30,959 nt of DNA, from positions 1-30,959 of the IMG/VR virus record IMGVR_UViG_3300028766_000025, one strand, 5' to 3'. The translations under genes and the position numbers were made by a program. The notes beneath the pieces were generated by a model. The model made no database searches, was not told where the DNA came from, and was given only the letters and a program-made list of their open reading frames with translations. The first letter of the stretch is position 1, and every line of letters begins with the position of its first letter. This stretch comes from a virus. This document shows, piece after piece, positions 4,370 to 8,491 of this stretch.

Positions 4370-5778
4370 AAATAACGCACATAGACCTATTCTCCGGCAT
4401 CGGCGGAGCAAGCATAGCAGTAGATGAAGTATTCGGAAAAAATAACGTAACCCACATATTCTGCGACAATGAACCATTCGCCCAAGCAATCCTCAAAAAA
4501 CACTGGCCCGAAGCACCTATCATCGGAGACATCCGGGCCTTTACTACCAACGCCGACATCAAGCGACGCGTTCACGGGGAATCTAAAAAGCAGTCAGCAA
4601 AAACCCACAACGAAACACTCAGTGAATTTATCGCAAGCGTTGGATCACCCTTTATACTCACCGGCGGCTTCCCATGCCAACCCTTCAGCCAAGCCGGACG
4701 AAGAAAAGGAACGGATGATGACCGTTATCTCTGGCCGGAAATGCTTAGGGTTATTCGAGAGTTCAAACCTCAATGGGTCATCGGTGAAAATGTTGCGGGA
4801 CTACTTACTTGGGACGAGGGCGTGGTACTCGAACAAGTGTGCCTTGACCTGGAAGGTGAAGGTTACGAAGTACAACCGTTCGTTATACCAGCTGTCGCCG
4901 TCAATGCGCCGCACCGAAGGGACAGGGTCTGGATTGTTGCCCACCGCGAGAGTGGGAGGGAACGGTTCGGCAAGCAAAAAGGAAATTGCAATGGGGAATC
5001 CAAAACACAGATTAGAAACGACAATCGAGATGCTTCCAACGCCAGTAGTAAAACCCACGGAAGATGTTGTTATTGTCCCGGTTGCGATAAAGGATGGGAT
5101 GAATGTACCTGCGATGCTTCCCACGCCAGACAGCCACATGGAACGAGGAGTAGCGAAAGAGTGGAAGCCAATAAGACCGAGCGGAGCGCACGCATCGTTT
5201 CCTCTGAACGAGGCAGTAGCTGGGACGAAAACTGGCTTGAAGTTGCAACCTGGCTTTGTGGAGTATTTAATGGGCTATCCGAAGGATTGGACAAAGATAT
5301 GAGTGATGGGGTATTATTGAAGTATGCCCCGACCCTCAATGCTATTACCCGACAAGATTTGCCCTATCTGTGGAAAGGTTTTCAATCGAAAGCGTTTCAA
5401 TGGCGTATTGGAAGATTCGACACGGTACAAGACCCGGATTACGTGTTCGCAGTCCTGTGGAAACTCAAAAATCGAGCCGACAAGCAAATCTGCCTTCCGT
5501 TCGAAAGCGAAGAAGTTCAAAACGCTTATATGCGAAATGTGTGGGACGACGAAAAATCTCGACGCGCATCACGTGGACCGGAATATCAAGAACAATACGC
5601 CAGAGAACATCAAGACACTTTGTCATCCATGTCACATGAAGTCGCACTGGCGGCGGCGGAAATCCAAAAGTCGTTTTTGAAAGATAGGAACGCTCGGCTC
5701 AAAGGACTCGGCAACGCCTGGGTCCCACGGGTGGCGGAGGAAATCTTTGCCGCCATTAAACATATCGATCGAACATAA
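4366..5778 (+). CDS. DNA (cytosine-5) methyltransferase
   Basis: 470-residue C5 cytosine methyltransferase that would transfer a methyl group from SAM to cytosine, probably to evade host restriction. Motif I is 'IDLFSGIGGAS' (6-16). Motif IV is 'GGFPCQPFSQAGRRKG' with catalytic Cys104 (100-115). Motif VI is 'GENVAGLL' (140-147). Motif VIII is 'APHRRDRVWIVAHRESG' (181-197). The C-terminal motif X region is 'RLKGLGNAWVPRVAEEIFAA' (444-463). Residues ~198-440 replace a standard target-recognition region and have odd composition, with a Cys-rich patch (CCYCPGCDKGWDECTC, 234-249) and 'DENWLEVATWLCGVFNGL' (287-304), which recurs in related phage enzymes. Most of this region is encoded by DNA that also encodes two other proteins in the +1-shifted frame. 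Confidence 0.93.
   Translation: MKITHIDLFSGIGGASIAVDEVFGKNNVTHIFCDNEPFAQAILKKHWPEAPIIGDIRAFTTNADIKRRVHGESKKQSAKTHNETLSEFIASVGSPFILTGGFPCQPFSQAGRRKGTDDDRYLWPEMLRVIREFKPQWVIGENVAGLLTWDEGVVLEQVCLDLEGEGYEVQPFVIPAVAVNAPHRRDRVWIVAHRESGRERFGKQKGNCNGESKTQIRNDNRDASNASSKTHGRCCYCPGCDKGWDECTCDASHARQPHGTRSSERVEANKTERSARIVSSERGSSWDENWLEVATWLCGVFNGLSEGLDKDMSDGVLLKYAPTLNAITRQDLPYLWKGFQSKAFQWRIGRFDTVQDPDYVFAVLWKLKNRADKQICLPFESEEVQNAYMRNVWDDEKSRRASRGPEYQEQYAREHQDTLSSMSHEVALAAAEIQKSFLKDRNARLKGLGNAWVPRVAEEIFAAIKHIDRT
4469..5302 (+). CDS. LPTP-repeat protein nested out of frame inside the methyltransferase gene
   Basis: 277 codons without a stop, entirely inside the methyltransferase gene but shifted by one base. 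The translation is not noise. It has Leu-Pro-Thr-Pro-type elements at residues 26-29, 157-160 (LPTA), 189-192 and 217-220; a central block 'CALTWKVKVTKYNRSLYQLS' plus PSMRRTEGTGSGLLPT (124-159); and a C terminus 'TGLKLQPGFVEYLMGYPKDW' (256-275). These features recur in phage/prophage proteins found with C5 methyltransferases (pattern LxPxFVEWLMG[FY]PxxWT). Function is unknown; the name 'methyltransferase' sometimes attached to such proteins is not supported by motifs here. The start is uncertain because the N terminus is not conserved. It ends 21 nt before the nested HNH gene in the same frame. Confidence 0.82.
   Translation: MNHSPKQSSKNTGPKHLSSETSGPLLPTPTSSDAFTGNLKSSQQKPTTKHSVNLSQALDHPLYSPAASHANPSAKPDEEKERMMTVISGRKCLGLFESSNLNGSSVKMLRDYLLGTRAWYSNKCALTWKVKVTKYNRSLYQLSPSMRRTEGTGSGLLPTARVGGNGSASKKEIAMGNPKHRLETTIEMLPTPVVKPTEDVVIVPVAIKDGMNVPAMLPTPDSHMERGVAKEWKPIRPSGAHASFPLNEAVAGTKTGLKLQPGFVEYLMGYPKDWTKI
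5324..5680 (+). CDS. HNH endonuclease nested out of frame inside the methyltransferase gene
   Basis: 118-residue protein in the +1 frame relative to the methyltransferase. An N-terminal zinc knuckle uses Cys13/Cys16 (CPICGKVFNRKR) and Cys41/Cys45 (CSQSCGN). The HNH domain is 'ICEMCGTTKNLDAHHVDRN' (Cys70, Cys73, His82-His83), then 'NNTPENIKTLCHPCHMKSHW' with Asn91/92, Cys100, Cys103, His104 and His108. This is the complete beta-beta-alpha-metal core, so nicking or cleaving activity is expected. The ATG lies 21 nt after the nested LPTP gene's stop. The same DNA encodes methyltransferase residues ~320-438. Having a complete HNH core in an overlapping frame by chance is very unlikely. Confidence 0.87.
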   Translation: MPRPSMLLPDKICPICGKVFNRKRFNGVLEDSTRYKTRITCSQSCGNSKIEPTSKSAFRSKAKKFKTLICEMCGTTKNLDAHHVDRNIKNNTPENIKTLCHPCHMKSHWRRRKSKSRF

Positions 5779-7281: not shown

Positions 7282-8491
7282 ATGAAGATCACGCTCATAC
7301 CAATTGAAGATCTCAAGCCCTACGGCAAAAATGCAAAGAAGCATCCCAAGGGGCAGATAGAGGCGATCGCCCGGAGCATCAAAGAGTTCGGGTTCAATCA
7401 ACCGGTAGTCGTCGACAAAAATAATTCGGTCATCGTGGGTCACGGTCGCATGCTCGCGGCCATACAGCTCAAGATGTACGATGTGCCGGCGATCAAGGCA
7501 ACCGACCTCACGGATGCGCAGATCAAAGCGTATAGGCTCGCGGACAATAAACTGAACGAAAGCGACTGGGACATGGACCTCGTGATCGAGGAACTGAAGG
7601 AGCTGAAGCTCGAAGGCCTCGATATCACGATTACCGGATTCGATGACGATCTCACGATCGAGACGAAGGAAGACGATGACGCACTCGGGGAAGCCATGGG
7701 AACGATAGAGCCGATCGTGAAGGTGGGAGATCTCTGGCGGCTCGGGGATCATCTGCTTTATTGCGGCGATGCCACGGAAAAGAAGTCATACGATCGCCTG
7801 CTGGGCAAGGACCGGGCAAGAATGATATTCACGGATCCGCCCTATGGCATCAAATACCAGGACAGCGACGGCGAGGGCATCATGAACGACGACAAAAAAG
7901 ATGCGGCGCTCGTGAAGTTCTTCCAAGATGCTCTGAAACAGATCCATGCATATTCGGCGAATGACGCCACGCTCTACTGGTGGTACAGCGAACGATTCAC
8001 GGCGGAGAACCTCGAGGCATGGGGGGGGGGCCGGATGGAAGTGGAGCCAGACGGTGCATTGGCTAAAGAACGGCCCCACATGGGCGCCAAGCCTCCTGTA
8101 TCAGCGTCTAAGCGAACCCTGCATGGTGGGATGGAAGAAGGACAAGAAGCATTATCAGGATCTCGCATTTTCGAAATTCACGGAGCTATGGGATCTCCCC
8201 AAAGCCCGCTTCGCGCAGCATCTCGATTGGTGGTACGAAAAGCGCGACGACCCGAAGACCTATATCCATCCGACGCAGAAGCCAGTGCAACTCTCCGAAC
8301 GCGCGATAAAGCGATCGAGCGAGAAGGGAGATATCGTGCTGGATGTGTTCTGCGGATCCGGGAGTTCGCTCATAGCATGCGAACAGCTCGGGAGAAAAGG
8401 TCGTGCGATGGAACTCGATCCCAAGTTCTGTGATCGCATCATAAAGCGGTGGGAGAATTTAACGAAAAAAACGGCGAAGAAATTAAAATAA
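7282..8491 (+). CDS. ParB-like domain fused to DNA N6-adenine methyltransferase, frame broken at a G10 run
   Basis: Residues 1-~110 are a ParB-like domain ('IEDLKPYGKNAKKHPKGQIE', 'VIVGHGRMLAAIQLKMYDVP'). A beta-class methyltransferase follows: motif IV 'MIFTDPPYGIKYQ' (DPPY at 185-188), then in the next frame 'YIHPTQKPVQLSERAI' and motif I 'VLDVFCGSGSSLIACEQLG'. DPPY followed by the SAM motif fits N6-adenine enzymes. The first frame runs from 7282 but becomes nonsense after Ala246-Trp247 at ten G's (8021-8030), reading on to a stop at 8433. The true continuation is in the +1 frame to 8491. With nine G's it would read through as 402 residues. Either a phase-variable tract, slippage or a sequence error explains this. 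It probably protects phage DNA from restriction. Confidence 0.88.
8021..8030 (+). repeat. Poly-G tract (G10) at the methyltransferase frameshift
   Basis: Ten G's lie exactly where the recognisable protein sequence switches frame. Removing one G joins '...ENLEAW' to 'GAGWKWSQTVHWL', restoring a normal methyltransferase. Runs of this length are hypermutable by slippage and are the classic basis of phase-variable methyltransferases; they are also a common site of assembly error. Confidence 0.9.

Follow-up and report, generated by a model that had tools for sequence, protein, structure and literature searches.

A +1-frame protein nested in a phage C5-cytosine methyltransferase gene as the probable specificity subunit of a two-chain enzyme

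A methyltransferase gene of a virus (IMG/VR virus record IMGVR_UViG_3300028766_000025) contains, fully within its open reading frame (ORF) and shifted by +1, a second ORF rich in Leu-Pro-Thr-Pro (LPTP) elements. Are two proteins encoded by the same stretch of DNA and, if so, what does the nested one contribute? The outer protein is here called alpha and the nested protein beta; coordinates are positions in the window, which is the whole stretch of DNA analysed, 30,959 nt in length. The comparisons described below suggest that the locus very probably encodes a two-subunit C5-methyltransferase of the M.EcoHK31I kind, with beta as its specificity subunit.

Two coding frames in the methyltransferase gene

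Residues 4-225 of alpha match Pfam PF00145 (E 4e-38), and alpha also matches phrog_363 (E 2e-64), with the motifs aligned; PCQ, RDRVWIV and GLGNAWVP stand at residues 103, 185 and 447, as given in the original prediction. The LPTP elements, CALTWKVKVTKYN and FVEYLMGYPKDW are likewise present in the +1 frame as it had claimed, and beta matches phrog_1008 (E 2.6e-24). The locus is not a local assembly error, since an identical (100%) sequence is found in contigs from other metagenomes (L006 and L007, IMG/VR). Its features are collected in Table 1.

Table 1. Features of the methyltransferase locus, in window positions
Feature	Position	Strand	Remarks
Alpha, C5-cytosine methyltransferase subunit, 470 aa	4366..5778	+	Motifs I-VIII and X; own frame without IX
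Alpha motif I (DLFSGIGG)	4384..4407	+	
Alpha motif IV with catalytic PCQ	4663..4698	+	
Alpha motif VIII (APHRRDRVWIVA)	4906..4941	+	
Alpha motif X (RLKGLGNAWVPR)	5695..5730	+	
Beta, nested +1-frame protein, 277 aa, ATG	4469..5302	+	Putative specificity subunit
Beta N-terminal LPTP module	4541..4642	+	5' of conserved core
Beta conserved core	4697..4930	+	Overlaps alpha motifs IV-VIII; both frames constrained
Predicted hairpin CALTWKVKVTKYNRSLYQL in beta core	4838-4894		pLDDT 74-85
Beta recognition region	4931..5218	+	Cassette similarity to other loci; beta alone constrained family-wide
Degenerate module GLLPTARV.. in recognition region	4931-5029		
Module MLPTPVV.. in recognition region	5030-5113		
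Module MLPTPDS.. in recognition region	5114-5218		
Beta motif-IX-like end (GLKLQPGFVEYLMGYPKDWTKI)	5234..5299	+	Best-conserved part of beta
HNH endonuclease ORF, 118 aa	5324..5680	+	Out of frame within alpha; phrog_1271, E 9e-14

The exact start of beta is uncertain, because the +1 frame is already open from about 4451, upstream of the putative start ATG at 4469, and no Shine-Dalgarno-like site was found before this ATG. A strong Shine-Dalgarno site is present at the first beta ATG in 41% of loci versus 23% of control ATGs, and the medians of the two groups are nearly equal (Mann-Whitney p 0.21).

Beta was used to gather related loci from collections of phages, plasmids, viruses and bacterial genomes, and a separate set was gathered with alpha alone; every forward frame of 283 loci was then scanned with profiles of alpha I-VIII, alpha X, the beta core and the IX-like end of beta. 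In 270 of them one ORF holds alpha I-VIII and X, and a second ORF, at +1, holds the beta core and IX; the beta IX profile matches the alpha frame in none of the 283. The pair is also found in 79 of the 80 loci identified by alpha alone, the remaining one being cut by the end of its contig. At 95% identity the set comprises 211 non-redundant loci, with overlaps of 465-1464 nt (median 774 nt), and the record titles of the genome contigs collected include Bacteroidota, Clostridia, Gammaproteobacteria, Acidobacteria, Nitrospirales, Omnitrophota and Parcubacteria.

One alternative is that no beta is made and that the +1 frame owes its openness and conservation merely to the conserved residues of alpha and to codon bias. 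In its favour, some conserved alpha motifs are mirrored in the +1 sequence (RDRVWIVA reads SGLLPT). It is hardly credible, given that the frame was open in only 1 of 20,000 shuffles of the synonymous codons of alpha with the protein fixed (mean 8.6 stops), that canonical C5-methyltransferases of the same genomes, taken as a control, show 7-30 stops in the +1 stretch from PCQ to their end, that fourfold-degenerate sites in the overlap are conserved, and that the constrained frame over the recognition region and motif IX is that of beta and not of alpha. Openness by chance or through codon bias was rejected on the first three of these grounds.

Double coding is real, as established computationally; the claim of true double coding in the original prediction is borne out by the shuffles, by the 270 loci and by the pattern of selection. 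The same count of loci agrees with the view that the nested protein is conserved, and contradicts the statement that such an arrangement is very rare.

Division of motifs and of selection between the frames

In a profile comparison with canonical enzymes, alpha aligns over motifs I-VIII (E 2e-43) and motif X is also present, but motif IX is missing, the alpha frame at that site reading EVATWLCGVFNGLSEGLDK. The sole part of beta that can be aligned to canonical enzymes is its end, which falls on motif IX (LTPRECARLQGFPDNF vs LHSDFVGWMMGYPQDW) with a weak profile similarity (E 0.011, probability 4%). Counted across frames, the IX-like end and X lie a median of 18.7 codons apart (n=210), compared with 17 aa in canonical enzymes. 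This spacing is canonical; along the DNA the order I-VIII, recognition region, IX, X is therefore preserved, with a change of frame only. The locus differs from the canonical layout, in which motifs I-X are in one chain and one frame, in having a constrained recognition/IX segment in the +1 frame. It resembles M.AquI (CYCGRG), a split C5-methyltransferase, in that alpha carries I-VIII; the small subunit of M.AquI contains the distal recognition region, IX and X (PMC3404938), however, whereas here X (GLGNAWVP) is in alpha.

In the +1 arrangement the third codon position of alpha is the second of beta. Divergence at fourfold-degenerate alpha sites is 0.366 inside the overlap versus 0.646 outside it for pairs 70-80% identical, and 0.225 versus 0.553 for pairs 80-95% identical, despite an alpha amino-acid identity that is slightly lower inside the overlap than outside. 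Synonymous-site conservation in the overlap, put forward in the original prediction as a check, is observed.

Substitutions were also sorted by their effect in both frames, using disjoint pairs and DNA alignments of which only stretches at least 75% identical were kept; this test was redone on DNA alignments because a beta-guided alignment could favour beta, and the redo gave the clearer result. Over motifs IV-VIII, NN/SN for alpha is 0.17 and NN/NS for beta 0.38, which indicates constraint in both frames. On DNA alignments, the corresponding values are 1.49 for alpha and 0.21 for beta in the recognition region, and 0.78 and 0.17 over motif IX, such that beta is the constrained reading in both. 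Selection is thus divided along the same border as the motifs. Purifying selection in one frame only, which was to have spoken against double coding, is not what is found over IV-VIII; in the recognition region and motif IX, it is beta that is constrained.

In the recognition region, alpha is carried along almost neutrally. With the beta protein held fixed, 4.7 alpha-frame stops are expected there and the probability of an open frame averages 2.3%, yet alpha is open, a result inflated by the choice of the 211 loci for an intact alpha, although 270 of all 283 are intact. When the N-terminal LPTP module of the window is compared with locus L009, 31 of 34 aa are identical in the beta frame and 9 of 34 in the alpha frame, and of the DNA differences 6, 3 and 21 fall on the first, second and third beta codon positions.

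It had been suggested that beta might be an inhibitor, or a decoy against host restriction, that is, a regulator independent of alpha. Nothing was found in favour of either role; beta would bring exactly the segment that is missing from alpha, at its canonical place, and neither alpha nor beta has been seen lost singly from an intact locus, all of which makes an independent regulator highly improbable. A little less improbable, but still very unlikely, is that beta arises solely by programmed frameshifting, fused to alpha in a single chain of I-VIII, target-recognition domain (TRD) and IX. The order of the segments along the DNA does match one chain, and the beta start in the window is without a Shine-Dalgarno site. 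Nevertheless, beta is constrained over IV-VIII and its N-terminal module, which would be left untranslated by a fusion after VIII, alpha is kept open as far as motif X, which would be absent from such a fusion, and M.EcoHK31I is composed of two polypeptides (PMC3404938).

In the favoured two-subunit reading, alpha would make the large catalytic domain, with AdoMet binding, the PCQ catalytic cysteine, ENV, motif VIII and motif X, whilst beta would make the small domain, consisting of a conserved N-terminal part, a target-recognition region built as an array of ~40-aa LPTP units, and the motif-IX element. A specificity partner, the first of the three roles originally suggested for beta, is supported by the motif division, the IX-to-X spacing and the selection. 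As to its physical role, we infer that the two chains associate and depend on one another, forming one enzyme that would methylate cytosines of the phage's own DNA through recognition by the LPTP array, most likely as a means of escaping host restriction.

LPTP modules of the nested protein

From the 211 betas, 519 LPTP modules with a median length of 40 aa were cut. Most betas have 1-5 modules after the core, and some have 1-2 before it. Although their backbones are less than 50% identical, 305 module pairs share 60% identity or more across 28 aa or more, and 16 of these link N- and C-terminal positions. The N-terminal module of the window is itself similar to C-terminal modules elsewhere (73% in L274, 65% in L002). 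Conversely, the number of modules differs in 10 of 24 locus pairs whose backbones are at least 85% identical. Judged by these comparisons, LPTP units behave as shuffled cassettes of ~40 aa. They are probably target-recognition modules, each of which would read DNA.

An alternative would retain the two-subunit enzyme but see in the LPTP modules structural linkers or protein-interaction repeats instead of DNA-recognition units. The predicted structures of beta leave room for this: both of the two models are of low confidence (pLDDT 58 and 66), a Foldseek search with them gave no meaningful match and no PDB match, and the beta sequence has no match in the PDB. However, the modules lie between VIII and IX, the usual site of the recognition region in C5-methyltransferases (PMC3404938), and they are swapped between dissimilar backbones, as expected of specificity cassettes. 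A linker role is for these reasons considered unlikely.

With the modules taken as recognition units, a bolder proposal, which we regard as quite possible without favouring it outright, is that the beta frame holds target-recognition cassettes in a swappable array, in which ~40-aa LPTP modules, each with its own methylation target, are traded, gained and dropped by phages and bacteria, while the overlapping alpha frame is kept merely open. Several recognition domains per enzyme are described for the multispecific phage C5-methyltransferases SPR, phi3T and M.phiBssHII, those of M.phiBssHII being separated, in the titles of papers cited by PMC8936443. SPR and M.phiBssHII would by analogy be precedents for exchangeable LPTP specificity cassettes, with the difference that the SPR, phi3T and M.phiBssHII enzymes are single chains in one frame and the enzyme of the window is split over two.

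Inserts, variants and known relatives

The unusual length of alpha is due to an HNH gene inserted within it. The HNH ORF is in the frame of beta but past the beta stop, between the beta end and alpha motif X, and has an ATG start with a possible Shine-Dalgarno site. The site holds ~26 nt in other loci and an insert of ~400 nt in the window, 357 nt of which are ORF. Only one other of the 211 non-redundant loci, L205, carries such an insert; its HNH homologue occupies the same position (45% over 109 aa). The alpha frame is open across the insert in both, with a shuffling P of 0.0004 for the window and 0/2000 for L205. That the insert belongs to a group I intron or another known RNA was considered and rejected, as the window has no Rfam match and nearly all of the insert is ORF. 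The ShiLan element is a homing HNH gene concealed in another frame of a phage methylase gene (PMC11855218). The two cases are alike in layout, both having an out-of-frame HNH ORF in a phage methylase gene whose own frame is free of stops (PMC11855218); unlike that of ShiLan, the HNH ORF of the window has an ATG with a possible Shine-Dalgarno site and is placed between the beta stop and motif X.

Elsewhere in the window (7282-8433 and 7946-8491, + strand) there is a second DNA methyltransferase, with a ParB N-terminal domain and an N6/N4 methyltransferase (phrog_498), apparently split by a +1 frame change: positions 33-281 of the phrog_498 profile match the first ORF and 292-430 the second. This split may reflect a sequencing error, decay or frameshifting.

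Divergent +1 pairs are also found in E. coli prophages and in Acinetobacter, Klebsiella and Xanthomonas phages. In Klebsiella virus KpV2811 (L318, 1676-3035) the beta frame is stop-free into the downstream endonuclease VII gene, and in a prophage copy of the pair in E. coli PCP07014 (L316, 1874-2635) alpha is broken by an internal stop. Other variants divide the motifs at a different point. In the gp6/gp5 pair of Mycobacterium phage Firecracker (L317, 1544-2489), annotated 'DNA methyltransferase', alpha has I-VIII and the overlapping +1 beta ends in IX and a motif-X-like GNGVCP, which looks like an AquI-type split in overlapping +1 form. In Gordonia phages CheeseTouch and SchottB (L321 and L322; methyltransferase annotated at 1809), IX and X are in the alpha frame and a +1 ORF of about 250-267 codons bears LPTP modules. 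The pair probably originated from a one-frame gene whose recognition/IX segment came to lie in +1 through a pair of compensating frame changes, with beta probably extended upstream thereafter by overprinting alpha. The Firecracker, Gordonia and divergent +1 variants would fit such a one-frame ancestor, in which the recognition segment slipped to +1 and the point of return varied.

The closest characterised layout is that of M.EcoHK31I (E. coli, YGGCCR), in which, as reportedly described by Lee, Kam and Shaw in 1995, the gene for the small subunit lies within that of the large one in another frame, and both subunits are said to be needed in vitro. The large polypeptide contains I-VIII and X and the small one IX (PMC3404938). 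The locus described here shares an alpha with I-VIII and X but without IX, and a beta encoded inside the alpha gene in another frame. Since the layout is that of M.EcoHK31I, beta is best read as an obligate specificity subunit and not as an inhibitor or decoy. The locus is, however, phage-borne, has an HNH gene within alpha, and has a longer beta (277 aa) with several LPTP modules, one of them 5' of the core. In addition, selection places the recognition region in beta, whereas the predicted TRD of M.EcoHK31I has been assigned to the large subunit (PMC3404938). A search of plasmids and E. coli genomes for an M.EcoHK31I record returned only divergent prophage pairs.

The function of the nested protein, held in the original prediction to be undescribed, is anticipated by this layout (PMC3404938), by the PHROGs name of phrog_1008, 'DNA methyltransferase', and by annotations in Paenibacillus phages. 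In pairs of the latter, such as gp56/gp57 of Bloom, the same families phrog_363 and phrog_1008 are found and both nested genes are annotated 'DNA cytosine methyltransferase'; their betas are ~32% identical to that of the window, and they lack the HNH insertion.

No description of widespread nested methyltransferase subunits was found in the literature searched, which took in few subscription papers. The kind of enzyme is known; as far as that literature goes, its breadth, the frame-by-frame selection, the shuffling of cassettes and the HNH layer have not been described together. M.EcoHK31I, hitherto a single characterised enzyme, becomes part of a widespread case in which a DNA genome encodes two proteins over a long stretch of one strand, seen at ~200 distinct loci of phages and bacteria in which selection can be mapped per frame into segments where both frames matter, where only beta matters and where alpha must merely stay open. 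This points to many methyltransferase annotations from which the subunit that would set specificity is missing. Should the LPTP modules indeed be recognition cassettes, it could become possible to decode what many phage enzymes methylate; and should they form a swappable array, a combinatorial specificity system of wide occurrence would be encoded within another gene.
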